DNA of 64,000 nucleotides. Origin: a virus. The stretch's first letter is position 1, and every line of letters starts with the position of its first letter. The position numbers and the translations under genes were made by a program. The stretch covers positions 29,041 through 93,040 of the IMG/VR virus record IMGVR_UViG_3300043395_002359. One strand, 5' to 3'. The notes below the pieces were generated by a model, which had not been told where the DNA came from, did not search any database, and saw only the letters and a list, made by a program, of their open reading frames with translations. Shown piece by piece: positions 11,395-57,909 of the stretch.

Positions 11395-14300
11395 ATGACG
11401 ACACCTTCGCCTAGGAATCCAATCAGAATTGCCCGTGGTCTGTATGCAGACTTGTTGGCATCACTGAGCGATCTGAAAGAAGGTGAAATCTGTTTTGCAC
11501 AAGATCAAGACGCGCTGTATATAAAAGAGAATGGTGTATTAACCCTGACATCTGGCGGCGTCAGTGCAGCGCTAGTGATGGAAATCACTGGTATTGACCA
11601 AACCGGCGAACCAATGGGTCATGCCGACGCAACGGAAAGCGATATTTCATTCAACAGTGGTAACAGGATATTCGCTATTGCTCCATCTGGAGTTTCGTTT
11701 GATGTTTGGTGCAAAGGCATCAAGCATACATATCTAAGCGAACAGTCTGTTCAGATACCGGACACGACTGGATTGTATTATATCTATTTTGATGAGAATG
11801 GTGTTCTTCATTATCAGACAACATTCTTTGATCTGCAGAATCAGGCACCAACTGCTTATATTTACTGGAATGCCGCTACTGATCAGGCTGTTTATTTTGC
11901 TGACGAGCGTCACGGCATAGTTCTTGACTGGCAGACGCATGAATACTTGCATCGCACCCGTGGTGCTGCATTTGCGCGTGGATTTGAATTAACTGGTTAT
12001 ACGACTGTTGGCGGTGGTGCAGTTGCCGCTGACGCTCAGATCAGTGTTGAAAATGGTACATTTTACGACGAGGATATTCAGGTTGATGTAGTCCACTCAT
12101 CCACGCCGGCGCAGGATACGTGGCAGCAGGACTTGCAGGGCCCTGCATTGATTCCCGTCATGTGGAGGAACGGTACGTCGTGGAGTATTGATACGGCTAC
12201 CGATTTCCCGCTCAAGGCAGGCACCGCCAGGCCGCAGTATAACCTGGAAGGCATTGGTCAATCATGGACTGCCGTTGATATTGATGCAAACAAATACGTC
12301 AATATGTTCGTTATTGCTACGAACAATCTGAATCATCCGGTAATTGCTATTCTTGGCCAGAAACAACACAACAATGCGGCCGATGCTCAGACCGAGACTT
12401 GGAACACAATCAATCTGACTGGATTTCCATCGCTCGAGTTTCGCCCTTTATATCAGCTCACCTATCAGTGCGGCGCATACGGTAACTCGATCTCGGCAAG
12501 ACTCAGGTCTGCTGTTGATCTGAGGTATAACCAGATCGGTGCAAGTTCTAGCGGCGTTGGTGCAACTGGTCCTGTTGGTGCTACAGGAGCCATTGGCGCT
12601 ACCGGCGTTACTGGTGCTGGCGTTACAGGCGCTACTGGTGTAGATGGTCCGACTGGAGCAAGTGGTCCTATTGGACCTACCGGTCCGATCGGTATTACTG
12701 GCGCTACAGGCATTGCCGGTCCTACTGGGGCCAGCGGTCCTACTGGACCGATTGGCATTACTGGTGCCACTGGCGTGGTCGGCATCAGCGGAGCCACAGG
12801 TATTGAAGGTCCAAGCGGCCCAACTGGTGCCACTGGTCTCATCGGCCCCACTGGTGCGAGTGGCCCAACTGGTCCTATCGGCATCACTGGTGCAACCGGT
12901 GTAGTCGGCGTAACCGGACCAACCGGTGCCACTGGTGTCATTGGCATCAGTGGCGCTACGGGCATCCAAGGATCTACTGGTGCTACCGGAGCAACAGGTG
13001 TCATTGGCATCAGTGGCGCTACTGGCATTCAGGGCTCAACCGGTGCCACGGGCGCAACCGGGGTGGTCGGCGTCACTGGTGCAACTGGTGTAATCGGCAT
13101 TACCGGTCCAACTGGTCCCAGTGGTGTTACTGGCGCTACTGGAGTCATTGGTATCAGCGGTGCCACTGGCATTCAGGGCGAGCCTGGTACAACCGGCGCT
13201 ACTGGTGTTGTTGGCGTAACTGGCGCAACTGGCGTCACCGGTGCCACTGGCGTCATTGGTATCAGCGGTGCAACGGGCCCGAGTGGTCCCACTGGACCTA
13301 CGGGACCGATCGGTATTACCGGTGCGACTGGACCAATTGGCTCAACTGGTGCAACTGGACCACTGCCAGAGACTACTACATATACGGCCAGTTCAATCAC
13401 CACAGTCAGTGGTAACTATGTTTCTGGCAGCCTGGCCAGCATCCAAACATATGGCGATTTCAGTACTGGTAACTACTACAGGGTAGATGACTTAGACGCT
13501 ACAGCACCGGCCTACGAGGTGCGGGTTGGCTTCAGTGGTGTTACTCAATTTAATCGTATTGTATTCAACGTAAACTATACAAATACTTCAGCCCACACGA
13601 TTCGGGTTGAATTATATGACTACGTTAACTCTATATGGGTTGAATTTGGTAGATTTTCTGGACTTGCAACATGGACACAGTTCTTGCTTGGTGTTATTGA
13701 TAGCACGAACTTTATTTCTGGTGGCAATGCATCACTTCGTTTCTATCATCAGTCTAGTGGCAATGCGGTCCACCAGAGCCTGTATGACTACGTGGCACTG
13801 GAAGATTCACTCCAGGGTGGCCAGGGCCCTCGCGGTGCTACCGGTGTAACTGGTCAGGTAGGCGCGACTGGCGTTACTGGCGCAACTGGCGTTGCCGGCA
13901 TCAGTGCAAGCGGTCGTATCTGGTACTTCAGTCAGATCAATTCTGATATTACTGGCTACGAAAGCCTGGTACCTGATTCGCCGGATTCTGCGCCGCAGGA
14001 TGACATGACTGCTGTTACTACAAGTAGCAGTGGTGAGGTGTTGATTGAAGAGTTTGCTACCGTTGCTGGTGATCCTGGAATCGAAGAGATTCCCACTGGT
14101 GAATACGAGATCCGTTTTTGGAGCTATGTATCTAGCAACGATGGCGATACGCGTCTTGTATTCCGTGTTTACAGACGCAGTACTGGTGGTACCGAGACGG
14201 AACTGTTCTATGTTATTTCGCCAGAGATTAACGCCACTACTGCTAGCTACTACAATCAAATCATTGTAAATACTCAGCCAAACGCAATCGATCCCACTGA

Positions 14301-15570
14301 CAGGATCGTCACAAAAGTATACGCAAAAACAACTAGCACCAGCAATATTACTGCACACTTTGTTCATTCTGGCAATACACCCAGTTCCTGGAAGACTGCC
14401 ATTACTTTGGGCTATGTCGGCCCTCAGGGTGCCACAGGCCCGACCGGTGTACAAGGCCCGACCGGCCCGATTGGTATTACTGGGGCAACTGGTCCCGAGG
14501 GACCGACTGGCGCTACCGGCGTTGCTGGGCCGACGGGCGCAAGTGGTGTTATCGGCGTCAGTGGCGCAACTGGAGCGACTGGTGTTGTTGGTGTAAGTGG
14601 CGCTACTGGGGTTGTTGGCGTTTCCGGAGCTACCGGTGCTACTGGCGTTGCTGGTGGCACTGGAGCAACTGGTGCAACTGGTGTTGTTGGCGTATCTGGT
14701 GCTACCGGAGTGATTGGCGTTAGTGGTGCCACTGGCGCTACTGGAGTTGCTGGTATCGATGGAGCTACCGGTGCGACGGGCGTTGCTGGTGGGCCCGGTG
14801 CCACGGGCGCTACTGGCGTGGTCGGTGTTACTGGTGCTACGGGTGTTGACGGTGCTACGGGCGCTACGGGCGCTACGGGCGTGGTTGGTGTAACCGGTGC
14901 TACTGGCGTTCAGGGCGCTACCGGCATCCAAGGCGCTACCGGTCCCACTGGCGCAACGGGAGTGGTCGGTGATCCTGGCGCTACCGGAGCGACTGGTGCT
15001 ACCGGCGTCGTTGGTGTTACTGGTGCCACTGGCGTTACTGGTGATCCTGGCGCCACTGGTGCTACTGGTGTTGGAATCACCGGGGCAACTGGTGTTGTTG
15101 GCGTATCTGGTGCTACTGGTGCCACCGGCGCAACTGGCGTTGCAGGGATTGATGGACCAACTGGTGCAAGCGGTCCGACTGGTCCAACTGGTCCAACTGG
15201 TCCGACGGGACCCACCGGAGCTACCGGCGTAACCGGTGTTGCTGCGCCCAAAGCTATTAGCGTTCTATTCCCAACAAACGCAGAAAAGATTGCAATGTTC
15301 TATACGACATCTGCAATTACAATCAGCGCAATTCGCGTTGTTCTGTCTGGTACTACTCCTAGTGTTACGTTCTCAATCAGGCACGGCTCTGATTTCTCGT
15401 TAGCCGGTACGGAGGTTGTGACTGGCGGCACAACGACTACAAACACTACGACTGGTCAAGCGATAACCACATTCAACGCTGCCTCCATTGCCGCCAATAG
15501 TTTTGTTTGGCTGACGACGACTGCTGTTTCGGGCACTGTTAACTCAATTAATGTCTCCCTGCAATACTAA
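11395..15570 (+). CDS. Giant collagen-repeat tail fibre protein
   Basis: 1391 residues. N terminus ([20 protein letters not shown], then [18 protein letters not shown]) matches the virion-anchoring domain common at the start of phage fibres. A beta domain to residue ~385 is followed by three GXY collagen-like blocks: ~387-660, ~810-838 and ~1010-1283, dominated by GATG, GVTG and GPTG units. Two globular beta domains (~660-805, ~838-1008) and a C-terminal ~110-residue globular tip separate and cap them. The repeats should form trimeric triple-helix shafts joining globular heads. The stop overlaps the next ATG by one base. Confidence 0.88.
12550..13370 (+). repeat. Collagen-like GXY coding repeat, block 1
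   Basis: About 270 codons of Gly-X-Y, mainly GAT GVx and GPT G units, within the giant fibre gene. Nucleotide units of 9-18 bp recur with frequent synonymous changes, so the repeat is conserved at protein level more than at DNA level. Confidence 0.9.
14426..15245 (+). repeat. Collagen-like GXY coding repeat, block 3
   Basis: About 270 codons of Gly-X-Y in the C-terminal part of the giant fibre gene, rich in [13 protein letters not shown] units. A much shorter block (about 13826-13910) lies between the two long ones. Confidence 0.9.
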
Positions 15571-16278: not shown

Positions 16279-16602
16279 TTGAATCCCGCGTCCCTGGATA
16301 TTACTATTCACCAGCGTGCAACGTTCAGGCAGGCGTTTACGCTACCATTTGACTGCACTGGGTATACAGTAGTCGCTCAAGTATGGTCCGAAAAGAGAAG
16401 GTCGCTGCTATTTGAGTTTACTGTTGAATGGATTGATCAGGCTGCCGGCAGTTTTTATCTGGTTGCTGATTACCAGGATACGACAAACATGAAGAAGAAC
16501 GGCATATGGGATTTGATGGTTATTCAACCAAATAACGAGCGGTATTACTGGATTGAAGGCACAGCCATTCTTGACCTTGGCGTAACTGATCCCAATGCCT
16601 GA
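16279..16602 (+). CDS. Baseplate/tail upper-protein-like beta protein
   Basis: 107 residues from a TTG codon. The pattern [20 protein letters not shown], then [20 protein letters not shown], then [11 protein letters not shown] and a final [10 protein letters not shown] matches the small beta domain common in phage tail proteins that bind baseplate or fibre. The stop overlaps the next gene by 8 bp. The TTG start is chosen because no ATG or GTG precedes the conserved part in frame. Confidence 0.7.
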
Positions 16603-17356
16603 ACTTGATCCTGTTGTAATAACAACCTATGATCAGGTAAACGTTTCGTGTTCCTGTGAGGATCCGCCGCAGATTATTGAACTGCAGGCATCTCCAGTAA
16701 CCGAAACCGTAACTATTGGAGTAGTTGGTCCGCAGGGCTCACCAGGCGCTACAGGCCCCATGGGGCCCACTGGACCAAGCGGAACGATCGGTGTTGATGG
16801 ATCTACCGGGCCAACTGGTCCAAGCGGTCCTACGGGCCCCACAGGCCCCAGTGGCGTTAATGGCCCTACCGGCCCCAGTGGTCCCACAGGCCCCAATGGC
16901 CCTACTGGTCCAGATGGTTCCACTGGACCCACGGGTCCTGTTGGTGCTACAGGCGCTGATGCGCTGTGGAATTTTGTTGGTGAATATAACAATGGCGCTG
17001 ATTACTACCCTGGCGATGTTGTCACCTACAATGGTGGCACGTATTACAGGATAAATGAGCCAAATCCTGGGTACCCGCCGACCGATCCTGCTTATTGGAC
17101 GCCTGTTGCCGAACCCGGAGCATTTGGTGCTACTGGGCCAACCGGTGTTCAGGGTGAGACTGGGCCTACTGGACAAACCGGTGCTACCGGTGTTGGCATT
17201 ACTGGCGCTACAGGAGTTGTCGGCGTTACTGGAGCTACGGGTGTTGTCGGTGCGACTGGTGCAACCGGCCCATCACTCAGGGATAATATCACTACCAGCA
17301 CGGCCGATCCGAGTGGCGGCGTAGATGGCGACATCTGGATTAAGTACACCGCTTGA
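16595..17356 (+). CDS. Collagen-like fibre with chitin-binding-type module
   Basis: 253 residues. Residues ~45-122 are collagen-like ([16 protein letters not shown]). They are followed at ~125-170 by a compact aromatic module, [20 protein letters not shown] then [13 protein letters not shown] and a final W, which is the CBM5/12-type (ChiC/chitin-binding) layout. A second short collagen run follows, then a [15 protein letters not shown] tail motif common in phage fibres. Probably a small adhesin binding glycan on the host surface. Overlaps the previous gene by 8 bp. Confidence 0.78.
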
Positions 17357-25200: not shown

Positions 25201-25421
25201 TGAGAATGCAAACAATTATACCGTTTCTACCTGGCTACATGTTCAATGGCTATACGCTAGAGTCGACCGGTGTCGCCCTGAAGCCAACGCAGCATATCCA
25301 TCCAGAAACTGGTGAGATAGTCTACTATGTTAGACCCTTGTTTGAACATGGAGGCGCCTTTGTCGGCATGTACATACGACACAAAGGCATAGTAGACTGG
25401 TTAGAAAATGCTAACGATTAA
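25200..25421 (+). CDS. Small hypothetical protein
   Basis: 73 residues; ATG overlaps the lysin stop (TAATG). Aromatic- and Pro-rich (IIPFLPGYMFNGYTLESTGV, PLFEHGGAFVGMYIRHKGIV). No membrane segment and no family recognised. Coupling to the lysin suggests a role late in infection. Its end overlaps the end of the convergent minus-strand operon by 4 bp, with no terminator visible between the two. Confidence 0.6.
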   Translation: MRMQTIIPFLPGYMFNGYTLESTGVALKPTQHIHPETGEIVYYVRPLFEHGGAFVGMYIRHKGIVDWLENAND

Positions 25422-25879
25422 ACGTTAAGATCTATCATATCGTCGTCATCCTCGTCGTCATCATTCCCCGAAACATAAGATAAGCCGGGAATGCTTTCAA
25501 CAATTGCTCTCATGTAAGTGTGTATTTTATCCTTGCTCCAATCACAATTACTATAGAGTTGCTGGCTGAGCTGATTTAGTGCCTCAGAGTGATTTGAAGT
25601 CCAAGTACCTCTACGCAGCGCATCCTCTTTCACGCTGGAAACTTGGCAGAGTATACTTAACTCATTGCCTATATCCTCTTGGTCGAGAACCTGCTCAGCG
25701 TGGTATACTCTGTCCTTGTCAACAAGCCAAAGTATGCCCTTGAACAGGGAAGCAAATGCCGTATATACAAAATTAAATATTGAACTAAGTACGTTCAGTA
25801 CCAAGTTGCCGCAATACTGCAGGGCGGATAATGCGCCCTCAAATATTCCAACTAGAAGATCGTATAAACCGTTTTTCAT
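25418..25879 (-). CDS. Hydrophobic protein at end of replication operon
   Basis: 153 residues. The first ~52 residues are strongly hydrophobic with little charge (VGIFEGALSALQYCGNLVLN, NFVYTAFASLFKGILWLV), probably one or two membrane or amphipathic helices. The rest is soluble and ends in a very acidic run (GNDDDEDDDDMIDLNV). It overlaps the helicase gene by 4 bp. A membrane tether for replication is conceivable, but no family is recognised. Confidence 0.6.
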   Translation of the reverse strand: MKNGLYDLLVGIFEGALSALQYCGNLVLNVLSSIFNFVYTAFASLFKGILWLVDKDRVYHAEQVLDQEDIGNELSILCQVSSVKEDALRRGTWTSNHSEALNQLSQQLYSNCDWSKDKIHTYMRAIVESIPGLSYVSGNDDDEDDDDMIDLNV

Positions 25880-27654
25880 GTTAGATATTTTGAGCTTTTT
25901 ACGACATTTACATTCTGCATTGTATCGTCATTTTTCAAGCTTTGAGTGGGGTAGTCCAACTGTATGAGTGACATTTGAACATCATTACGCACGGCAACTA
26001 ATCTTTCATCTGGCGGATTGCCTTCCCAGAAATGCTGACCATTCCGGACGGCGGCATGCCATACCTCTAACTTGTTCTCTGACGGTCTACCCTCGACAGC
26101 TACCTTATTTTTCCTAATAAGCCATACGGCATGCGATACATGGCTGAGGGCATCGGTGCCACGAATTTCATCTAGCTGTGGCTCTTTCACCTCGTTTGAT
26201 ACGTTGCTTCTTTCTGACTTGAGGCCGACCTGATTCATCTGTGCAAGGACAAACAAATCAATGTCTACTTCTTTTGCCACTGTAATTAGTTTATACGCCC
26301 TTTCTTCCAGCATAGCGGCTGTATCCCTTGGGGCGCCTTTATGTCTAGATAATGCATGAAAGTGGTCCAAGACGACACAACGAAGGTCTGGGTTCTTTGC
26401 CTTCATTGATCTTATTGAATTGACCACTGTGTTGGCACAAGCTCCCCAAGGCGCCTCGACCAAAAGCTTGCCATTGGTCTCCTGTAAGGCAAAGGCAAGG
26501 CTTCCCACTAGATTGGTTAGACCCTCCTTGTCTTGCTCATTTGGGCTAACAAGTTCGCTTACCGTTACATATCCAAGTCTATCATCAGATGCTCTCCAGT
26601 GATAGCCGTGCTTCCCGAGAAGTTTCCTACTGAGAGACGACATCAGTCGTGGCTCTATAGAATCGTAGTCAAGTTCTGCAGAAATATAGCCAACCGTTAA
26701 TCCCTTAGTTGCTAGCGATGTGGCAACTTGACATCCTATGGCAGTTTTACCAACTTTCGTCCTAGCCGCTATTGTCATTAGACGGCCTCCAAACAGGCGA
26801 TGTGGCTCAGGGAATGAGACTCCTCCACCTATATCAAGATCGAATGCGGCAATACCTGTTGATGCTGGCCTTTTCTGGCAGATATTAGATGAAAACCTAT
26901 CCATCCAATTCATTCTTTGGCCACCAGGATCGCCCATCATCGCCTCTATCATGCCTACAGCCTGGCCCTGGTTGCCAATACTGCCACGCATCATTCCGAC
27001 GCCTTCCATGGCCTGCTGCTGCAGGTATTCGAGGGCTTCTTCTAGCTTCGTATCAGCCTTCAGGTTTTGCTTGGCGTTATGCAGAGTGTCAAGATATAAT
27101 GCTCTTACCCTGACTTGCTTCAATACGTCAAGAGCAGTATCCCATTCTGATTTTGGATCTCCGTAACCTTTAACCAATTCTGGATCAGATAGTTCGGAAA
27201 TCGTCTGATTGAATGATATTACAGGTGTTATCCTTGACGAACTATTAAGATTAGTGTAGCTAGCTATGATAGACTCCTTGGAGATTATCTGCCCGCTCCT
27301 GTCTCCGATAAAAGTTAGATCTATCTCTTTGGCTATTGCCTTGAAACGGGTATCAGACCAAAGGCCAAGAGGGACAAGTTGGCCGTGGCCAATGCCAAAT
27401 CCTGTTCTAAGCTGTCCCCACAGCTCCCTAGCAAGTCCAGGCGGCGACGACAATACGCGGCTCAGGACAATAGCTTCTTGAGAAGTAGTGTCTTCTCTGT
27501 CCTGTACCGATGTCGGCTGCAGCTTATCGACTATTCTAGCCACTTCCGTAGCCTTTTGGACATAATCAGTCCTGCAGGCTACGATCTTGCCGTTTTCTTC
27601 GGTGAGCAGTCCTAGGTCGACCGCCTTTTGTAGATAAAAGGGTAGTTCAGTCAT
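25876..27654 (-). CDS. DnaB-type replicative helicase
   Basis: 592 residues. The C-terminal half is a RecA-like DnaB core: FGGRLMTIAARTKVGKTAIG with the Walker A Lys at ~300, CVVLDHFHALSRHKG as Walker B, a DLFVLAQMNQVGLKS strand with the usual Gln, and an EIRGTDALSHVSHAVWLIRK end segment. The N-terminal ~270 residues are longer than the usual DnaB N domain and are not recognisable by eye; they may hold loader or partner contacts. It directly follows the initiator gene (adjacent codons). Confidence 0.88.
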   Translation of the reverse strand: MTELPFYLQKAVDLGLLTEENGKIVACRTDYVQKATEVARIVDKLQPTSVQDREDTTSQEAIVLSRVLSSPPGLARELWGQLRTGFGIGHGQLVPLGLWSDTRFKAIAKEIDLTFIGDRSGQIISKESIIASYTNLNSSSRITPVISFNQTISELSDPELVKGYGDPKSEWDTALDVLKQVRVRALYLDTLHNAKQNLKADTKLEEALEYLQQQAMEGVGMMRGSIGNQGQAVGMIEAMMGDPGGQRMNWMDRFSSNICQKRPASTGIAAFDLDIGGGVSFPEPHRLFGGRLMTIAARTKVGKTAIGCQVATSLATKGLTVGYISAELDYDSIEPRLMSSLSRKLLGKHGYHWRASDDRLGYVTVSELVSPNEQDKEGLTNLVGSLAFALQETNGKLLVEAPWGACANTVVNSIRSMKAKNPDLRCVVLDHFHALSRHKGAPRDTAAMLEERAYKLITVAKEVDIDLFVLAQMNQVGLKSERSNVSNEVKEPQLDEIRGTDALSHVSHAVWLIRKNKVAVEGRPSENKLEVWHAAVRNGQHFWEGNPPDERLVAVRNDVQMSLIQLDYPTQSLKNDDTMQNVNVVKSSKYLT

Positions 27655-28650
27655 TTACTTCTCGTCATCATAACGCCAGAAGCGTTCCCTGCTGGTTTCC
27701 GGCTCAGGAACATCGGTCGGCCAGGTTGGGATTTGGTATTTCATCCTGAAGCGTGCTGGATCCAGTTTAGCGTCCCTCAGGCGTTCTTCAGTTTCTATAA
27801 TCCTGCTATCTAGTACATGTAGGCTAGCCGGATCATTCTTAGACAACTCATAATACATGAACTGCAGTTCATCATAATCATCAATAAGTGATCTGTATTT
27901 CGCTGCTACTACAAGCTCATCCTTCCTGTCGGCTTCTCGCAGCGCTTCGCCCCTTTCGTGATTCAACCCCTCATTGTACAACATATATACGTTCTGGTAT
28001 TTCTTGGATTGAGGTGATCCAATACCAATAATGCTTTGAAGGTTCTTGGACGAGTTCTCCCTCGACCAGAAAGGTGAATGCTCAACCCCTACTTTGAGGA
28101 CAGAGAAAAATTCTTCATAGCAATGAGGCTTCAGTTTTAATGCAGTTATGTGAGAATCTATCGCCTTTATCAACTCGCTACTCATTACATTTACCTTCGA
28201 GTAGTTGGCTGGCCTGTATGCGTTCCAGGCATTTTTAGCCGCCTCTAGGTAGTTTATCTTTTCAGCTTTTGGCGTCTTCTTTGGTTCTATTTCTGAGACC
28301 ATTGTTATGCCAAGCAGTTCCTTTTGAGCTTCTGCTCTAGCTGTGTTAGTGCTTTCTATCAGCTTGCGAAGCACTGGAGCCGGATTGATCAATATAAGAT
28401 GCTCTTCGGTGCCTTTAACTAACCCGAACTCGCGCAACTCTTTAATACATCTAATTCTTGTTGACCTGTGTATACCTATCATCTTATCAAGAACTGATTT
28501 ATCTACTGGCCCAAATTTCGACTGATTAGCTAAGACAATCCAAAGAAGTTTGGTGTTTGGCTGTAGCTCTTCGCACAACAGAAGCTCGAGAGGCGCTTTG
28601 GCATATACCTCCGGCTCCCAATCGGCGTCTTTGGAGACGGAGATTTTCAT
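27655..28650 (-). CDS. Winged-helix replication initiator-like protein
   Basis: 331 residues from ATG; an upstream in-frame TTG at 28674 would add eight. Residues ~14-90 form a winged-helix domain (KAPLELLLCEELQPNTKLLW, then IGIHRSTRIRCIKELREFGL as the recognition-helix part). The C-terminal half is charged and helical. It heads an operon with the DnaB-type helicase, and its start adjoins the array of 15-bp palindromes. By analogy with phage O-type or RepA-type initiators, it probably binds that array and loads the helicase. A transcription-repressor role at the same sites is possible. Confidence 0.75.
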   Translation of the reverse strand: MKISVSKDADWEPEVYAKAPLELLLCEELQPNTKLLWIVLANQSKFGPVDKSVLDKMIGIHRSTRIRCIKELREFGLVKGTEEHLILINPAPVLRKLIESTNTARAEAQKELLGITMVSEIEPKKTPKAEKINYLEAAKNAWNAYRPANYSKVNVMSSELIKAIDSHITALKLKPHCYEEFFSVLKVGVEHSPFWSRENSSKNLQSIIGIGSPQSKKYQNVYMLYNEGLNHERGEALREADRKDELVVAAKYRSLIDDYDELQFMYYELSKNDPASLHVLDSRIIETEERLRDAKLDPARFRMKYQIPTWPTDVPEPETSRERFWRYDDEK

Positions 28651-28765
28651 GAGGCCGTTGTCGCTGCCCCACAACCTAACGACACCTGATGGCCGGTCAA
28701 CAAAAGGGAATCTGTTGTTTTCGCGACGACCAACGGTTAAATTATGTTAAGATTTTGGTGACCAC

Positions 28766-28951
28766 GTTGCATCGTGCAACATAAAAACGTTGCACTTTGC
28801 GACATTCCGCGTTGCGTCGTGCAACAAATCCACGATAAACGCGCAAAATGCAACAAAACCGTGTTGCGTCGTGCAACATGGCACGTTGCACCGTGCAACA
28901 CGAACGTTGCGTCATGCAACATAACACCGGAAAAACGTTGCACGACGCGAC
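28766..28951. repeat. Eight 15-bp palindromic iterons (origin or operator array)
   Basis: Consensus GTTGCRTCGTGCAAC: six-base arms GTTGCA / TGCAAC around 3 bp, usually preceded by AC. Copies start at 28766, 28789, 28811, 28840 (degenerate left arm), 28863, 28885, 28906 and 28937; the second and last have imperfect right arms. Start-to-start spacing is 21-23 bp for five of seven intervals, i.e. two helical turns, and 29-31 bp for the other two. The array lies between divergent operons, next to the initiator gene. Confidence 0.9.
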
Positions 28952-28952
28952 A

Positions 28953-29000
28953 CTTAAAAAGAACTCCCCTTTGAAAAGAAAAAATAATAAGAAAAGATAG
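28953..29000. other. AT-rich tract next to iterons, candidate unwinding element
   Basis: Roughly three-quarters A+T with a long purine run (GAAAAGAAAAAATAATAAGA). It directly flanks the palindrome array on the side away from the initiator gene, the usual arrangement of a DNA-unwinding element at iteron origins. No promoter is evident inside it. Confidence 0.55.
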
Positions 29001-29034
29001 AGGGGGCCGCTGGCGCGTCCCATACACTGTGGTC

Positions 29035-29409
29035 ATGGTTAGATCGCACAACAAACGGCTGAACCTGACTCCAGAGCAGAAGGCCCTGGCTGAACAGGAG
29101 TGGCCCGAAATAGGTCGCTCTATCGCCATAGCCGTTGTCCATGGCGGGAAGACAATCACCTGGGCTTGGGAAATCCTGATGCCACTAGGGATTTACGAAT
29201 ATTGGATGCTTGTTTACTGGGTTAAGAAATGCAGGAGGAAGTGCAAGCCCACGCGATTAGCAAGGGGGAGACCAAGAGCTGTTACCTCTGTCAGTCGTCG
29301 ATCAGTATTCAAGAGTCAAGAAGACATCAAGTTGGCCATGCGCATGCTGACTGATGGTATTGATCCACAAGAGGTGATTGACACGTATAATAAAAAAAGG
29401 GAGGAATAG
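29035..29409 (+). CDS. Small basic protein with AT-hook-like motif
   Basis: 124 residues from ATG (an in-frame GTG lies 6 bp earlier). N-terminal half is helical (LTPEQKALAEQEWPEIGRSI). Residues ~70-90 are very basic and include ARGRPRA, the core of an AT-hook, followed by a helical C terminus (DIKLAMRMLTDGIDPQEVID). It is the first gene on the plus side of the candidate origin, beside its AT-rich tract. A DNA-binding role at the origin or in early regulation is plausible. Confidence 0.65.
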   Translation: MVRSHNKRLNLTPEQKALAEQEWPEIGRSIAIAVVHGGKTITWAWEILMPLGIYEYWMLVYWVKKCRRKCKPTRLARGRPRAVTSVSRRSVFKSQEDIKLAMRMLTDGIDPQEVIDTYNKKREE

Positions 29410-29671: not shown

Positions 29672-30382
29672 ATGGCAGACGTACCCAATCTCGCTGGTAT
29701 TGCAACCCAGGACTTAGTTGAGACCATTGGTAGTGGCTCCTACAAGGCCAGTTACATAAACTGGGCCAGGACCATGAACCTGCTGCATGAGCACGCTCCT
29801 GGCTGGGCTCCTGAAATGCTGCCTACCAGTGATGGAGGCTGGGTCCACCCGGCCCCTGGTTCAGGCGGCTTTCTGATGATTCGCTTTGTCCACACCGATG
29901 GATCCGTGCGGCCCGCTTACCCGCAAAGCATCATGGATCATCGAAACAATGCCATACCCTTAGATAAAATCACGGCCAGAGACGTAACCGACACACATAG
30001 ACGCGGTTCCTGTATGGCCGCTGCCATGGAATTTGGCTTGGGGCATGAGCTGTGGGCAAAGATGCCACTGGAAAGTGGCTACCATGACGAGCCAGGAACC
30101 GCTCCAAGCAGTCCTACTACAGCAGGCTTTAAGGCCCAGAAGTCAGCGACCCAGAAGGACTTCCTCGAGGCTTGTCTTGATAAAGGTCTTACCAGTTATG
30201 CAGCGGATAATCTCCTGAGTCTGATCAATGGCAATTACGAAGGAGGCCTCAGAACACTGGCAAGTAAAACGGTAGAATGGGTTGCCGAGCAAAACGCAAA
30301 GGCAGAGCCCCCTACTGAGGAAGCACAGAATAGCAAAGCACCAAAAAAGACAACAAGCAAGCCGAAACCGGAGGATTACTGA
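29672..30382 (+). CDS. Single-strand annealing protein (DUF1071/Sak-like)
   Basis: 236 residues. The order YKASYINWARTMNLLHEHAPGW (~24-45), a GGFLMIRFVHTDGSVRPAYP strand pair and MDHRNNAIPLDKITARDVTD leading to MAAAMEFGLGHELW (~115-128) matches the DUF1071 group of Rad52/Erf-like phage annealing proteins (an MDxRNKAI motif, then a basic helix ending GLG). C-terminal ~50 residues are a Lys/Pro-rich tail. It would anneal single strands during recombination together with the exonuclease at 33366-34226. Confidence 0.75.
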   Translation: MADVPNLAGIATQDLVETIGSGSYKASYINWARTMNLLHEHAPGWAPEMLPTSDGGWVHPAPGSGGFLMIRFVHTDGSVRPAYPQSIMDHRNNAIPLDKITARDVTDTHRRGSCMAAAMEFGLGHELWAKMPLESGYHDEPGTAPSSPTTAGFKAQKSATQKDFLEACLDKGLTSYAADNLLSLINGNYEGGLRTLASKTVEWVAEQNAKAEPPTEEAQNSKAPKKTTSKPKPEDY

Positions 30383-30521: not shown

Positions 30522-30554
30522 CCTTTGCTAGCATCGGTTGGACGCACACGGCAC

Positions 30555-31379
30555 ATGGCCAATTCGGCTTCAGGACAGGAGGACTTGACGGCATGGATGA
30601 ACACAGCCGGTAGGTATAAACTCCTATCCGAAGAGGAGATCCTTGGCATTTCAAGGAAAATCAAGGCTTCTAATCCTGGATCTGCACAGTATGCAAAGTA
30701 TGTAAATAAGTTAACCATTCATAATCTCAGGCTTGTTACCAAGTTTGTTAATTCATTTATGAATGGCAAAACGAGGAAAAACTTTGGCTGTCCAGAGACG
30801 GTTGATTATTTGCAGGTTGGCTCTCTTGGCCTGAGAAGGGCTGCCGAATGCTTTGACCCTACCGCTGGTTATAAGTTCTCAACATACGCCTACCCGTGGA
30901 TTAGGTCGTTTGTGAGCAGGTATAACATGAAGATATCCAGCATTTTTCATGTGCCGGAGAACGCCCTAAGGGATAGTTGGCATTACGAAAAGCATGGCGT
31001 CCTTTTTACCAAGGACAAAAAGATCAAGCGCGATGAGCAGTATTGCCTAGATTTGATAACAAGGGTAAAGGCTGCTCAAGCATTCGTTTCACTAGACATG
31101 CCGATCTCTAGTGATAATGACAATTTAATGACACTTGGCACTCTCATAGAGAGCCATTATGGTACATCAGTAAATGATGGCGAGTTTTCTGCCGAGATTG
31201 AGGACATGATCAGAAACGCTGGTCTTACCAAGATTCAGGTAGAAATCATTAAGTCTTACTACCTGGACGGGATAACAATGGAACAAATTTCATGCTTGCA
31301 TGACCTCACCCGCGAGAAGATTAAATCCTTGAAGGATTCCGCGATAAAGTCCCTCAGGGCTATTAATGGATTGGTATAA
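30555..31379 (+). CDS. Phage sigma-70 family factor 1
   Basis: 274 residues from ATG; upstream in-frame TTG rejected as it lies in the terminator tail. Region 1.2/2.1-like: LTAWMNTAGRYKLLSEEEIL, then LTIHNLRLVTKFVNSF. Region 2.2-2.4: DYLQVGSLGLRRAAECFDPT and GYKFSTYAYPWIRSFVSRYN, very close to the primary/group 2 sigma consensus. Region 4-like C terminus: TKIQVEIIKSYYLDGITMEQ ... REKIKSLKDSAIKSLRAI. It should direct host RNA polymerase to phage promoters. It is separated from upstream genes by a terminator and thus independently expressed. Confidence 0.88.
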   Translation: MANSASGQEDLTAWMNTAGRYKLLSEEEILGISRKIKASNPGSAQYAKYVNKLTIHNLRLVTKFVNSFMNGKTRKNFGCPETVDYLQVGSLGLRRAAECFDPTAGYKFSTYAYPWIRSFVSRYNMKISSIFHVPENALRDSWHYEKHGVLFTKDKKIKRDEQYCLDLITRVKAAQAFVSLDMPISSDNDNLMTLGTLIESHYGTSVNDGEFSAEIEDMIRNAGLTKIQVEIIKSYYLDGITMEQISCLHDLTREKIKSLKDSAIKSLRAINGLV

Positions 31380-33015: not shown

Positions 33016-33364
33016 CTATACAATTGTAATCAAGCAACCCCTATTCTCCAAGGCTAGACCAAGGCTCACCAGGAGCGGCCACGCCTATATGCCACCTGCC
33101 TACAAGACAGCTCAGGCTGTAATGAGGAAGCAAATAAAAGAACAATGGCATGAGGGCCCCCTCGAGGGGCCTATTTCATTGTCAATCAAGGTAAAAGGTG
33201 AAGGCAGAGGAGATACCGACAACATAGCAGGTGCATTTATGGATGTAGCTCAAGGCATAATCTTTACTGATGACAGGGTCAGTGTTATACCGAGCCTCTC
33301 GATAGTATGGGAGAAGGCGACGAAGGCAAAATCGGAATGGATAATCGAGATAAGGTTGTTATAA
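33008..33364 (+). CDS. RusA-like Holliday junction resolvase
   Basis: 118 residues from a TTG that overlaps the previous stop. The RusA pattern is visible: KQPLFSKARPRLTRSGHAYM (basic loop and strand), then GRGDTDNIAGAFMDVAQGII and FTDDRVSVI, providing the conserved Asp residues that bind metal (DxDN and DD). Length fits the family (~120). It should resolve branched DNA before packaging. A later ATG (33090) would remove the conserved N-terminal strand, so TTG is preferred. Confidence 0.8.
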   Translation: MPDYTIVIKQPLFSKARPRLTRSGHAYMPPAYKTAQAVMRKQIKEQWHEGPLEGPISLSIKVKGEGRGDTDNIAGAFMDVAQGIIFTDDRVSVIPSLSIVWEKATKAKSEWIIEIRLL

Positions 33365-53239: not shown

Positions 53240-53395
53240 ATGGCAAAACAGGGTTTGTATGCCAACATCGCGGCAAAGCGCAAAAGAATTGCAGCAGGCA
53301 GCGATGAAAGAATGAGAAAGCCTGGAACCAAGGGTGCTCCTAGCGCTCAGGACTTCAAGGATGCAGCTAAAACTGCAAAGAAAAAGAAAAAATAG
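53240..53395 (+). CDS. MAKQGLYANI-type small conserved cyanophage protein
   Basis: 51 residues: AKQGLYANIAAKRKRIAAGS, then ERMRKPGTKGAPSAQDFKDA and a Lys-rich tail. The same short protein is familiar from many cyanophages. Strongly basic; possibly DNA- or capsid-associated. Its stop overlaps the 3' end of the convergent tRNA-Leu gene by 3 bp. Confidence 0.8.
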   Translation: MAKQGLYANIAAKRKRIAAGSDERMRKPGTKGAPSAQDFKDAAKTAKKKKK

Positions 53396-53473
53396 CCTCA
53401 GCGAGAATCGAACTCGCACACCTTGCGGCGACGCATTTTAAGTGCGTTGTGTCTACCGTTCCACCATGAGGCC
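53393..53473 (-). tRNA. tRNA-Leu (anticodon UAA)
   Basis: 81 nt. Acceptor GGCCTCA/TGAGGCT (first pair G-U), Leu-type D arm GGTGGAACGGTAGACAC, anticodon stem ACGCA/TGCGT with loop CTTAAAA giving UAA, a long variable arm, and T arm GCGAG TTCGAAT CTCGC. Discriminator A, no encoded CCA. No group I intron is present, unlike many cyanobacterial tRNA-Leu(UAA) genes. It starts immediately after the CCA of the upstream tRNA. Confidence 0.92.
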
Positions 53474-53549
53474 TGGTGCTCCCTGAGAGGATCGAACTCT
53501 CCTGAGACCGATTATGAGTCGGTTGCTTTCACCAGATAGCTAAGGGAGC
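53474..53549 (-). tRNA. tRNA with CAU anticodon, probably Ile2 (AUA)
   Basis: 76 nt including an encoded CCA. Acceptor GCTCCCT/AGGGAGC, anticodon stem ACCGA/TCGGT with loop CTCATAA, T arm GAGAG TTCGATC CTCTC, discriminator A. C4-G69 and C5-G68 pairs, which favour lysidine modification in known tRNA-Ile2, are present; elongator Met tRNAs usually differ there. It lacks the C1xA72 mismatch of initiator tRNA. Elongator Met remains possible. Confidence 0.85.
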
Positions 53550-53557
53550 ATGGCCAC

Positions 53558-53585
53558 AGTCTAGCGGCGTGCAGCCTGGTGTCAA
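53558..53585 (-). promoter_or_regulatory. Sigma-70 promoter of the tRNA pair
   Basis: On the minus strand TTGACA, 16 bp, TAGACT, ending 8 bp before the 5' end of the CAU tRNA. Good match to a host-type promoter, placed to transcribe both tRNAs. Confidence 0.75.
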
Positions 53586-53669
53586 CTGTCCGTTCTCCTT
53601 GACATGGGGTTGCCTTTCTAAAGGGGCTGCCTAATCTGAGGACATGGCACCCGCTCCCCATTCTAGGAC

Positions 53670-54044
53670 ATGCCCCGTCACATCAAGCCACGCATCAGTC
53701 GCCGCCGCCTGCAAGGGCAGCGCATCCTTGATTTTGTTTCATGCCATCAGATAAACGGCAATGGCATCCAGTCTGTAACTGCTGCAAGAAAATTTGTGGC
53801 AGGTAATAGCATTGCCTATCCAGCAGTCATAAAGGTAAAGAGAAATGATTACACAGTTGACAGCTTTTTCTATGCCGAAAAAGGAATGTTCGGCTTGACA
53901 TACGCTGAGTTCAACTGGATGATATTTCCGTGTTTGAAAAAGCTTTTTGACTCTATGAATCAAAGAGAAATGTTTGTCGACCTAGAAGGCGTCGATTGGG
54001 CTTCGGAAGAGGAAAGCTATCGCCCTGAATATTCCTTTATCTGA
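53670..54044 (+). CDS. Hypothetical protein
   Basis: 124 residues. Basic N terminus (PRHIKPRISRRRLQGQRILD), then alpha/beta sequence (AYPAVIKVKRNDYTVDSFFY, YAEFNWMIFPCLKKLFDSMN) and an acidic end. No family recognised. Its 3' end overlaps the convergent membrane protein gene by 8 bp. Confidence 0.58.
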   Translation: MPRHIKPRISRRRLQGQRILDFVSCHQINGNGIQSVTAARKFVAGNSIAYPAVIKVKRNDYTVDSFFYAEKGMFGLTYAEFNWMIFPCLKKLFDSMNQREMFVDLEGVDWASEEESYRPEYSFI

Positions 54045-54330
54045 CGTACAGCGAATCGTCATCATCATCTTCAAAGGAGGAGGGTTCATGGAACAACTCC
54101 TCCATTTTTTTGCGCAGTGCTTTTTCTGCCAATTGGTCAAACTTGTAGTCATCAAATTTTGCCACAAGCAGTTTTTCGCCTGGCCTGTAACCATTCATTT
54201 CTGGATGATTATTGCTGGGAGGTAATTCTGAGTTCTTGTAGTAACCGTAGCGCTCACTCATTACCATCCAGCCCTGAATAGCTAATGATAGTATTATAAC
54301 AATGACTACCGACACCAAAAGCCAAACCAT
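54037..54330 (-). CDS. Membrane-anchored conserved cyanophage protein
   Basis: 97 residues. N-terminal membrane helix (WLLVSVVIVIILSLAIQGWM), then MSERYGYYKNSELPPSNNHP and RPGEKLLVAKFDDYKFDQLA, ending in an acidic run. The SERYGYYKxSELPP motif with a following PEM is one I associate with small cyanophage membrane proteins. Function unknown. It has an AGGTAAACTA motif 25-34 bp upstream. Confidence 0.72.
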   Translation of the reverse strand: MVWLLVSVVIVIILSLAIQGWMVMSERYGYYKNSELPPSNNHPEMNGYRPGEKLLVAKFDDYKFDQLAEKALRKKMEELFHEPSSFEDDDDDSLYVR

Positions 54331-54354
54331 GATGACTTTAAGCGCCGGTAGTCT

Positions 54355-54364
54355 TAGTTTACCT
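54355..54364 (-). promoter_or_regulatory. AGGTAAACTA motif (minus strand)
   Basis: Exact copy of the recurring decamer on the minus strand, 25 bp before the start of the membrane protein gene and within 6 bp of the upstream gene stop. Confidence 0.45.
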
Positions 54365-54369
54365 TGAAA

Positions 54370-54762
54370 CTATTTAGTTAGTCTGTTGTTAAAGTTAAAC
54401 TGATAGCCGGATAATGTATCATCATTGCAAAACGATGAATAGGTTCTATGGCAACAGATTTTATTTATAGCAGTTTCATGTACGCCAAATTCTTTAGCAA
54501 TACTGGCTTGCGTTTCGCCTAGTTTGTTTCTGAGTCTGATGTCATGAATCTGTAGATCGCTAAGGAATCCCATCTTGCGTCCACGCTTGATCGGATCTTT
54601 GCTAATAGGAGGACGCCTCCTTACTCTTTGTATAACTTTGCTTGGAGTTGATGCTGATACATTTGTGATTCTTGCAATGCTATCGAAATCGTAGCCTTGG
54701 CACCTTAGGTCCCAAATGCGGTCTTCCTTGGGAATGGAGATTCGTCCTCTTGTTCTGGTCAT
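54370..54762 (-). CDS. Putative regulator with two HTH units
   Basis: 130 residues. First HTH at ~12-45 (DRIWDLRCQGYDFDSIARIT NVSASTPSKVIQRV), then a basic linker (RRRPPISKDPIKRGRKMGF) and a second HTH at ~72-108 (LSDLQIHDIRLRNKLGETQA SIAKEFGVHETAINKI). The tandem arrangement fits resolvase-type or phage regulator DNA-binding modules without a catalytic domain. Likely a transcription regulator. A divergent promoter lies between it and the next plus-strand gene. Confidence 0.7.
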   Translation of the reverse strand: MTRTRGRISIPKEDRIWDLRCQGYDFDSIARITNVSASTPSKVIQRVRRRPPISKDPIKRGRKMGFLSDLQIHDIRLRNKLGETQASIAKEFGVHETAINKICCHRTYSSFCNDDTLSGYQFNFNNRLTK

Positions 54763-54776
54763 GACACGGAAGGGGC

Positions 54777-54806
54777 TTGACGGGTGTGGTCCCGCACGGC
54801 TATTCT
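54777..54806 (+). promoter_or_regulatory. Sigma-70-like promoter
   Basis: TTGACG, 18 bp, TATTCT, ending 17 bp before the ATG of a small plus-strand gene. Confidence 0.5.
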
Positions 54807-54822
54807 AAGCTGGTACCAACCA

Positions 54823-54984
54823 ATGTCAACCTTGAAGCTCGAGAAGACCACCATCCTGGCAATCTGCCTGGCGACCGCCGGATTGTTTACTTATTCAGAA
54901 GTTGCCAAAAAAGAACACGAAATTCACATGAAGCAATCAAAATACGAAAACATGGTAAAAGATATCAAAATTAACAATCGATAG
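54823..54984 (+). CDS. Small membrane-anchored protein
   Basis: 53 residues from ATG. A membrane segment at ~9-25 (TTILAICLATAGLFTYSE) is followed by a charged helix (KKEHEIHMKQSKYENMVKDI). Ends one base before the tRNA-like element on the other strand. Family unknown. Confidence 0.5.
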   Translation: MSTLKLEKTTILAICLATAGLFTYSEVAKKEHEIHMKQSKYENMVKDIKINNR

Positions 54985-55046
54985 GCGCTTTCCCGAATCG
55001 AACGGGTTCTCTAGGCTATCTGCCTAACGTGTCCAACACCAAGCGC
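54985..55046 (-). pseudogene. Degenerate tRNA-like element, Leu-type
   Basis: 62 nt with a 6-bp acceptor-like stem GCGCTT/AAGCGC and a T arm CCCG TTCGATT CGGG. The order GGTG..TTGG..ACACGTTAGG recalls the D arm of tRNA-Leu with deletions, and the variable arm is missing. The anticodon loop lacks U33. It is probably a decayed tRNA-Leu rather than a working tRNA. Confidence 0.5.
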
Positions 55047-55093
55047 AGTGACCCTCCTGTTTGTGCGTCATCCAGCGTCCTGGAGCTAAGCAT

Positions 55094-55168
55094 GGAGGGT
55101 GTTGGTCGAGGAGGAGGTAGATGCGCCTTTAAGCCTGATTTGAAATCAAGCGGCTTCATGCCTCCTCC
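55094..55168 (+). ncRNA. Structured tRNA-Ser-like fragment with closing stem
   Basis: GGAGGGT and GGTCGAG recall a tRNA-Ser 5' half; an anticodon-like arm with loop TTTGAAA (UGA anticodon) and a GGC/GCC variable-arm-like hairpin follow, but the T arm and 3' acceptor are missing. Instead 55110-55117 (GGAGGAGG) pairs perfectly with 55161-55168 (CCTCCTCC), closing the element. Either a tRNA remnant or part of a larger structured RNA. Confidence 0.35.
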
Positions 55169-55219
55169 CCATTTCCGGTTATTACTGAGACATCACCTGC
55201 ACACCGGCAAACTCTGGTG

Positions 55220-55540
55220 ATGAATGATCCGATGCGCTTGCCAAATGGGTCCCCGGCGCAACCGTGGATCAGACGGGTGGAAGGTGATCAGCCCCCCAGC
55301 CTGGAATCCCAGGACTTAGGCCCGATGCGGCGACCGGAGATTTCCAGTCCATGCAGAGCGGGAACGCAAACCAGGAAAGGTAACCCACACCAACGGTGGA
55401 CCTCAGAACTGGCTGCACCTTGCCGACAGAGCAGCAAGGGTGGCTGGCAGAAGGACCGGGCATGACGGATGTAAAGACAGCCAACAGAGGCCCGGCCTCT
55501 GTCCTAACCAGTATACCAAGCCATGACAGGTATTTTCACA
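55220..55540. ncRNA. Hairpin-rich noncoding region
   Basis: About 320 bp, clearly GC-richer than its flanks, without a credible gene. Stable local hairpins include CCTGG/CCAGG (~55300), CCTTGC/GCAAGG (55418-55439) and ACAGAGGC/GCCTCTGT with a 3-nt loop (55484-55502). The strand of any transcript is unclear. I could not match it to RNase P, tmRNA or intron signatures. Confidence 0.4.
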
Positions 55541-55581
55541 AAAATACATATTTGTCAGAAAATGAAAAAGACACAAAAATA

Positions 55582-55702
55582 GACCAGACGATGTGGTTGA
55601 GCCCTTGTGAACGCCCCCAACTGGCTTGATAGTTGGGATAGTAAGAGCCACATCATCTGATCTATGGTTCTTAGATGGCGAGAATATGTGTCGCCGCCTA
55701 AG
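55582..55702. ncRNA. Structured RNA candidate with long nested stem-loops
   Basis: A 17-bp stem with three mismatch or wobble positions joins 55582-55598 and 55646-55662 and encloses a perfect 7-bp hairpin CCCAACT/AGTTGGG (55616-55637). A second compound hairpin follows: CTTAG/CTAAG (55670-55674, 55698-55702) around GGCGA/TCGCC. No ORF of coding character overlaps it. It lies just downstream of tRNA-Arg on the minus strand and could be co-transcribed with it. Confidence 0.5.
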
Positions 55703-55753
55703 GGATGTGTCTAAACCATGCAGGGCGTCTAACTGATGCCAGTATAACGGAAA

Positions 55754-55827
55754 CACCCCAGACAGGATTTGAACCTGTGGCCGACCGCTTAGAAGGCGGT
55801 TGCTCTAGTCCACTGAGCTACTGAGGC
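55754..55827 (-). tRNA. tRNA-Arg (anticodon UCU)
   Basis: 74 nt. Acceptor GCCTCAG/CTGGGGT (two G-U pairs), D arm GCTCAGTGGACTAGAGC, anticodon stem ACCGC/GCGGT with loop CTTCTAA giving UCU, T arm ACAGG TTCAAAT CCTGT, discriminator G, CCA not encoded. It reads AGA codons. Confidence 0.92.
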
Positions 55828-55863
55828 AAGGCGTCGCCAATAGCCACTCTTACCTCCCCGTCG

Positions 55864-57674: not shown

Positions 57675-57909
57675 TTTCCCCTTGGCCGGCAGCAAAAGCA
57701 CTTTAACTGAAGCCGACGATTTGGGTTCTCCAATAGAGACGCCGCCGTGCTGCTCTGTATGGAAGGACATCAGACACGAATTTGTGTGGTATGCTTTTGC
57801 TGAGTACCCAGGCTACTTGTGTATGCCATCCACAAAAGAGGGATGGAGGATCAACTTTTGTCCATCATGTGGCAAGCCATCCCGTGGCTCAATCTGGAAA
57901 CCGCAATGA
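57640..57909 (+). CDS. Zinc-ribbon hypothetical protein
   Basis: 89 residues. Residues ~36-80 contain PPCCSVWKDIRHEFVWYAFA and then RINFCPSCGKPSRG, a Cys-Cys plus Cys-x2-Cys arrangement common in small phage zinc proteins ending with F-C-P-x-C-G. N-terminal ~30 residues overlap the AP2 gene and are less certain. Stop overlaps the next ATG by 4 bp. Confidence 0.62.
   Translation: MKSQKRLRNLTNFPLAGSKSTLTEADDLGSPIETPPCCSVWKDIRHEFVWYAFAEYPGYLCMPSTKEGWRINFCPSCGKPSRGSIWKPQ

Follow-up and report, generated by a model that had tools for sequence, protein, structure and literature searches.

What is the function of an array of short palindromic repeats situated between two divergent gene sets in a virus genome? 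The repeats occupy positions 28766-28951 of the window, by which we mean the whole 64,000-nucleotide stretch analyzed, which spans 29041-93040 of a virus record 93,040 bases long. The nearest annotated relatives of this record, from comparisons with the phage collection that included a helicase protein search, are four Synechococcus siphophages: S-CRES1, S-CRES2, S-CRES3, and S-CBS2. Based on sequence comparison, a structural model and analogy with characterized origins, we believe that the array and its AT-rich flank are an iteron replication origin bound by the adjacent initiator, and perhaps also autoregulatory, a reading to which we assign a probability of roughly 80%.

The repeat array and its flanks

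The array consists of eight 15-bp units, seven of which are recognizable and one of which is degenerate. The units, all without an assigned strand, are as follows:

28766-28780, no strand: putative iteron unit 1, GTTGCATCGTGCAAC
28789-28803, no strand: putative iteron unit 2, GTTGCACTTTGCGAC
28811-28825, no strand: putative iteron unit 3, GTTGCGTCGTGCAAC
28840-28854, no strand: putative iteron unit 4, degenerate, CGCGCAAAATGCAAC, 3 of 7 arm positions paired
28863-28877, no strand: putative iteron unit 5, GTTGCGTCGTGCAAC
28885-28899, no strand: putative iteron unit 6, GTTGCACCGTGCAAC, 7 of 7 arm positions paired
28906-28920, no strand: putative iteron unit 7, GTTGCGTCATGCAAC
28937-28951, no strand: putative iteron unit 8, weak, GTTGCACGACGCGAC, 4 of 7 arm positions paired

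An earlier note on this DNA had counted eight palindromes; because the unit at 28840 is degenerate (3/7) and that at 28937 is weak (4/7), we count seven units and one remnant. The regular spacing and helical phasing that it described are both present. The gaps between unit centers are 23, 22, 29, 23, 22, 21, and 31 bp, five of the seven being 21-23 bp, and at a period of 10.5 bp the mean resultant length is 0.75, a value reached in 0.6% of 20,000 draws from a random-gap null (16-36 bp). A search for the array word with up to three mismatches gave 13 strand-wise matches in the window, 10 of them inside the array, compared with an expectation of 2.6 ± 1.7, and none of 100 shuffles reached 13. 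Similarly, the palindrome-family score of the 750 bp around the array was 22.0, the maximum in 60 dinucleotide shuffles being 4.4. The window array has a feature expected of an iteron origin, clustered repeats of the size of an initiator site. Two groups of other high-scoring windows were rejected as arrays: those at roughly 12.7-15.2 kb overlap a long, repetitive ORF (11395-15570), whose repeats score like palindromic arrays and whose product is possibly, as a guess, a collagen-like tail protein, and those near 16.7-17.1 kb overlap ORF 16595-17356.

Another expected feature, an AT-rich element beside the repeats, is found by both sequence and nearest-neighbor stability, in agreement with the earlier note. 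This tract and the genes on either side of the array are:

25418-25879, minus strand: small ORF at the position of the S-CRES genes annotated as RNase III, without a family match here
25876-27654, minus strand: DnaB-like replicative helicase, the next gene after the initiator and on the same strand
27655-28650, minus strand: initiator-like protein of 331 aa, with a winged helix at its N-terminus (about residues 16-91 of the model), an unordered linker and a helical C-terminal part
28970-28999, no strand: AT-rich tract, candidate DNA unwinding element, the weakest of all 30-mers across the 1.8 kb examined
29035-29409, plus strand: gp4-like small helical protein, the first gene of the divergent operon (the name gp4 is taken from the S-CRES1 counterpart)
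29672-30382, plus strand: Sak-type single-strand annealing protein
30525-31379, plus strand: sigma-70 family factor

A sigma-70 scan of 28400-29400 found no promoter-like site between the starts of the initiator and gp4 genes, although phage and cyanobacterial promoters may differ from the model scanned for; its sole promoter-like site is at 29364-29391. Elsewhere in the window there are three tRNA genes (Leu, Met, and Arg; 53393-55828, minus strand).

The initiator-like protein and its locus in related phages

Judging from profile matches and a predicted structure, the product of the adjacent minus-strand gene resembles an initiator of the O/DnaD type, with a winged helix at its N-terminus. 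Searched against Pfam, this 331-aa protein matched no family at 0.001 and no RepA_N profile at E ≤ 1, its similarity to RepA being one of fold only. When the window protein and 38 IMG/VR relatives were compared with PHROGs (E ≤ 1), 19 of the 39 members matched the family annotated as DnaD-like helicase loader, 12 matched phrog_270 (replication initiation protein) and 11 matched phrog_678 (replication initiation O-like). The family and fold of the group thus support the earlier assignment of this gene as an initiator, the window protein on its own having a weak match (E 0.0014) to phrog_270 alone and not to the O-like phrog_678.

The AlphaFold2 model of the window initiator has a mean pLDDT of 89.4. 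In VIA-align, residues 1-91 scored highest against the primosomal DnaB N-domain from Geobacillus (Z 12.1, rmsd 2.1, 87 residues), followed by the archaeal protein 2d1h (Z 8.8), which ranks between DnaB and the DnaD and RepA chains. DnaD N-domain chains gave Z values of 8.0-8.4, and the initiator chains 4pt7, 4pql, and 5kbj, which we take to be staphylococcal plasmid RepA, gave 8.0-8.2 over 76 residues, bearing in mind that a Z near 8 can reflect a common arrangement. The likeness to these RepA N-domains lies in the winged-helix fold, whereas the identity is only 16%. A Foldseek search of the PDB with the initiator model returned no match at E ≤ 0.001.

A helicase-profile search of IMG/VR identified 51 distinct loci, and the set was completed with the window and four isolates; a fragment added by a further search (L061) was left out. 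In 55 of the 56 loci an ORF of 281-426 aa is located directly upstream of the helicase, and the remaining locus (L060), which has no upstream ORF on its contig, was dropped. By blastp (1e-4), 44 of the 55 upstream ORFs match the window initiator and 11 do not, so the kinship of those 11 rests on their position and a joint alignment. Removal of 13 of the 55 initiators at an identity of at least 95% left 42 non-redundant loci, the window included. Relatives of gp4, Sak and the sigma factor were found in all 42 by iterated profile searches, and all 42 have the same gene order, with sigma, Sak and gp4 on one strand and the initiator and helicase on the other. The minus-strand initiator and helicase genes and the plus-strand operon, between which the earlier note had placed the array, are thus a conserved arrangement of the locus.

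A significant palindromic array, with a score equalled by at most one of 153 control windows, is present in 26 of the 42 loci, and before thinning there were 39 of 55 loci in which none of 60 shuffles reached the array score. One control window (L019) scored 11.7; by eye it has no array word and resembles repetitive coding DNA, and it stays in the count. The other 16 of the 42 loci have no significant array by score; in 13 of them repeats are apparently visible by eye (unscored), the exceptions being L027, L042, and L055. A spacing near 22 bp recurs in these 26 arrays: of their 104 intervals, 61 measure 21-24 bp, 30 measure 14-19 bp and seven measure 29-33 bp, with one of 25 bp and five longer ones. 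Spacings of 14-16 bp are found in L029, L034, L050, and in part L037, and some of the units in these four may be better called direct repeats. In the arrays of L013, L020, and L022 most units show an asymmetry that always points the same way (e.g., GTTGCA on the left and TGCGAC on the right), which suggests unequal half-sites.

The unstable flank is conserved along with the gene order. When the 30-mers up to 200 bp from the array are compared, the least stable one is on the gp4 side in all 26 array loci, and in 23 of them it is unsurpassed in weakness across the 1.8 kb examined, although, since the array loci share ancestry, the count of 26 does not represent 26 independent events. In several loci (e.g., L048, L058, and S-CRES1) a recurring CACGCGCACGAGG-like stretch is visible by eye between the AT tract and gp4.

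The array word and the protein that may read it

The half-sites of the arrays differ widely among loci, and include GTTGCA, GTCGCA, GCTGCA, TGGACA, ACCCA, GCCCA, ATCTGA, ATCCGA, AGGATGA, GCGACA, and GATACC. When 12 related IMG/VR records were searched for the GTTGC-/GTCGC-type word, 10 matched, with one cluster each, the exception being a stray site in G017. By sequence comparison, the putative recognition word has changed many times across the clade and, in the clearest pairs, has done so along with the N-terminal part of the initiator. S-CBS2 and L037 are such a pair: their words are unlike (motif distance 0.65) and their initiator N-domains are only 13% identical, whereas identity is 86% in the C-domain, 87% in the helicase and 78% in gp4. 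The DNA identity of the two in 100-column steps follows the same course, being 0.58-0.93 within gp4 and only 0.32-0.55 from the array through the N-terminal part; it is 0.72-0.86 in the next 500 columns, 0.56-0.61 near the end of the initiator gene and 0.63-0.90 in the helicase. On these alignments, the array and the N-terminal part of the initiator are both replaced between S-CBS2 and L037. The same pattern is seen for S-CBS2 and L050 (N-domain 20%, C-domain 74%, and gp4 70% identical). In the opposite situation, the window phage and L016 have the same word (distance 0.07) and N-domains that are 88% identical, with gp4 proteins that are 30% identical. S-CRES1 and L051, which have a common word despite an N-domain distance of 0.55, are not a simple case.

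In partial Mantel tests on the 26 array loci, which leave out the 16 of 42 without a significant array, distances between words were correlated with those between proteins while controlling for helicase distance. The correlations were 0.191 for the initiator N-domain (p 0.024), 0.169 for the C-domain (p 0.045), 0.032 for sigma (p 0.31), 0.001 for gp4 (p 0.50), and -0.157 for Sak (p 0.97). These effects are small, and the N- and C-domains are told apart by the swap pairs only. Both types of comparison bear on the proposal that the gp4-like protein, and not the initiator, reads the array, either as a repressor or as an accessory origin factor. A gp4 relative adjoins the array in 42 of 42 loci, and its helical model has two helices (41-51 and 56-69) whose spacing is like that of a helix-turn-helix; however, gp4 is 78% identical between S-CBS2 and L037, which have unlike arrays, and 30% identical between the window phage and L016, which have the same word, and its Mantel correlation is nil. 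As gp4 also has no PDB match at E ≤ 0.001 and no useful profile match, we consider this proposal very improbable.

The link between the word and the initiator was also approached by a scan that is independent of the protein, in which viral contigs were searched for patterns of two adjacent units. This identified 30 stretches with the GTTGC-type and 19 with the TGGAC-type pattern. In 24 of these 49 tandem stretches (13 of 30 and 11 of 19, respectively) the N-domain profile matches an ORF (E < 0.01) located at or beside the array, seven of the 24 matches being weak (E 0.003-0.01); in the other 25 there is no such ORF. Six of the 24 are contigs already in the set (L313, L082, L319, L339, L346, and L249), and several of the other 18 resemble near-copies of one another. 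In 16 of these 18 further stretches the array is inside an open frame, as in lambda, and in L348 and L350 it is beside it; examples of arrays inside the N-domain-matching frame are L310:644-704, L325:2978-3038, and L347:8601-8720. Of nine such ORFs compared with PHROGs, eight matched replication initiation families, the exception being L347. In a control with a one-unit pattern, searched at the same E ≤ 0.1 cut-off and with a larger ORF set than the tandem scan, one of 198 stretches (L250, which has two units) had such an ORF at the site, and five further N-domain matches were 1.4-3.7 kb from it. The exact 15-mer and 17-mer, which among the viral-contig matches listed occur mostly as single units, served as a control only.

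Origin or operator

In the mechanism that we propose, dimers of the initiator (27655-28650, minus strand) would bind the palindromic 15-bp units via their N-terminal winged helix, as its fold and its replacement together with the array suggest. With units two or three helical turns apart, most dimers would be on one face of the helix and, if the lambda O-some is a guide, the DNA would probably be wrapped. The resulting strain would then melt the AT-rich tract at 28970-28999, and the C-terminal part of the initiator would deliver the DnaB-like helicase, the product of the following gene, to the strand opened in this way. Given the position of the array between two divergent genes, those for the initiator and gp4, initiator binding may also repress one or both of their promoters. 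The co-change of initiator and array would be expected to yield phages with mutually unreadable, and presumably incompatible, origins.

Two of the isolates have a second array. That of S-CRES1 (OQ587939.1 31497-31663; L183:3498-3664) consists of its own word, is situated between gp58 and gp61 and has eight units by score, the first of which is weak; that of S-CRES3 (OQ587941.1 29696-29781) has four units of its own, different word. Both are 26-28 kb from the proximal array and are followed by a TATATA-rich tract, and neither adjoins an initiator or gp4 gene. A word common to both arrays within a genome, and different between genomes, is what would be expected if one trans-acting protein reads both. 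No second array was found in S-CBS2 or in the window record, which is possibly incomplete.

The GC-skew check that the earlier note had called for could be made for the full record but is uninformative for it, the detrended minimum being at 1634 and the array at 57806 of 93040. A local skew dip at the array was set aside as a sign of an origin because it coincides with the minus-strand operon. In S-CRES3 the detrended minimum (29840) is 59 bp from the distal array and in S-CRES1 it is 1.3 kb from it, and 0.5 and 7.5% of positions, respectively, are equally near an array; we regard these minima as only suggestive of an origin. The S-CBS2 array is situated about 1 kb from the maximum of the skew, the minimum being at 5477, and no array was seen in three gaps read in that genome.

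These distal minima are one of the points in favor of a different reading, in which the proximal array is chiefly a cooperative operator through which the initiator-like winged-helix protein, or another phage regulator, switches the divergent initiator and gp4 operons, replication starting elsewhere, for instance at the distal array where a phage has one. The winged helix resembles those of many repressors, and the array resembles cooperative repressor operator arrays in general in its divergent promoter position and its palindromes in helical phase. It differs from such arrays in that no further cluster of the word was found in the 93-kb record and in that an unstable tract is kept beside it, on the same side in 26 of 26 loci. 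Moreover, the window record and S-CBS2 have the proximal array only, relatives of the protein match replication initiation families and its gene sits with that of the helicase, and the distal arrays keep their TATATA-rich tracts and have no initiator or gp4 gene beside them. On balance we consider the operator reading unlikely. The earlier note had left the choice between origin and master operator open. Comparison among relatives supports its origin half well, as the repeats and an unstable flank are beside initiator-like and helicase genes and the array is replaced with the initiator DNA-binding domain; its notion of a phage-wide master operator lacks support, since no other cluster of the word was found in the record.

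Phage repeats can also serve packaging, partition or recombination, and Sak and exonuclease genes are nearby. However, the terminase genes are about 7-8 kb away in S-CRES1, S-CRES3, and S-CBS2, no ParB-like match was found among nine window proteins scanned, and the array is replaced together with the initiator N-domain. We therefore regard such a role, in place of an origin or operator, as very improbable.

The proposed iteron origin has counterparts in several systems. The lambda O protein binds DNA with its N-terminal part and recruits the helicase, and lambda iterons are semi-palindromic. The helicase of the window phage differs from that used by lambda in being phage-encoded. According to the part of the source available (PMC7466680), the origins of lambda and the Stx phages have repeated initiator sites beside an AT-rich tract needed for unwinding, with iterons that lie inside gene O, number four (six in Stx phages) and have nearly the same sequence in different phages. 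The window locus likewise has repeated candidate initiator sites beside an AT-rich tract, but its array (28766-28951) has eight units and is outside the initiator open frame (27655-28674), and the word differs widely between the cyanophage relatives. In SPP1, as described in the accessible portion of PMC6316719, one origin-binding protein, gp38, serves two distant origins, oriL and oriR, composed of direct repeats and an AT-rich element, and the phage encodes a DnaB-family helicase, an annealing recombinase, an exonuclease and an SSB. The two arrays that S-CRES1 and S-CRES3 have by sequence may be compared with oriL and oriR. Among the differences, SPP1 has its oriL within gene 38 and encodes gp39 as a separate loader, and the window record has one array.

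A parallel to the co-replacement is found in PLE, for which the available sections of PMC8263062 report that the origin and the DNA-binding domain of RepA covary while the C-terminal domain is conserved, cognate specificity having been established experimentally. As in PLE, the intergenic palindromic array of the cyanophages changes, in the clearest pairs, with the putative DNA-binding domain and the C-terminal part is kept; PLE, however, is a satellite with two origin groups, and the cyanophage clade has many words. The same sections describe the PLE iterons as semi-palindromic and intergenic, so palindromic units, which the earlier note had contrasted with many classical directional iterons, are not unusual. 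This type of origin is accordingly familiar from lambda, SPP1, and PLE, and by analogy the present case most likely works like these, although the location of the array outside the gene and the lack of a RepA_N profile match make it a distinct variant of the iteron origin. Our literature search found no description of iterons in these phages, a weak negative as most subscription journals were outside it, and the accessible part of the P-SS2 paper (PMC2784084) describes none.

Why the word should change so often is a matter for a more tentative proposal. It is possible, if doubtful, that the origin is a lock and key under diversifying selection, in which the DNA-binding half of the initiator and the array or arrays are exchanged together time and again, leaving competitors, satellites or origin-directed nucleases unable to exploit or attack the origin, the position of the array outside the gene leaving its sequence free to change. 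The analogy with PLE, in the part of PMC8263062 available, suggests origin-directed nucleases as a possible pressure. A search of the window record, S-CRES1, S-CRES3, and S-CBS2 for a further protein carrying the initiator N-domain found none, so neither an Odn-like origin-directed nuclease nor a paralogous repressor of that kind was seen in these four records. The breadth of word change within one clade and the matched second arrays may surprise specialists. The locus supplies a candidate origin for a group of cyanobacterial phages and a naturally occurring set of variants in which a single initiator fold seems to recognize many different words, and with it changes in protein-DNA specificity, origin incompatibility between co-infecting phages and the underlying pressure become testable.

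Three minor observations concern the second arrays and their surroundings. The annotated minus-strand ORFs gp59 and gp60 of S-CRES1 overlap its second array and may not be real genes. In S-CRES3 a terminator-like stem, recognized by eye, precedes the second array. Further along the same genome (OQ587941.1 33028-33142) there are three copies of TAGTACnnnnGTACTA about 50 bp apart, a different palindromic repeat whose stretch at 33028-33126 has a score of 9.8.
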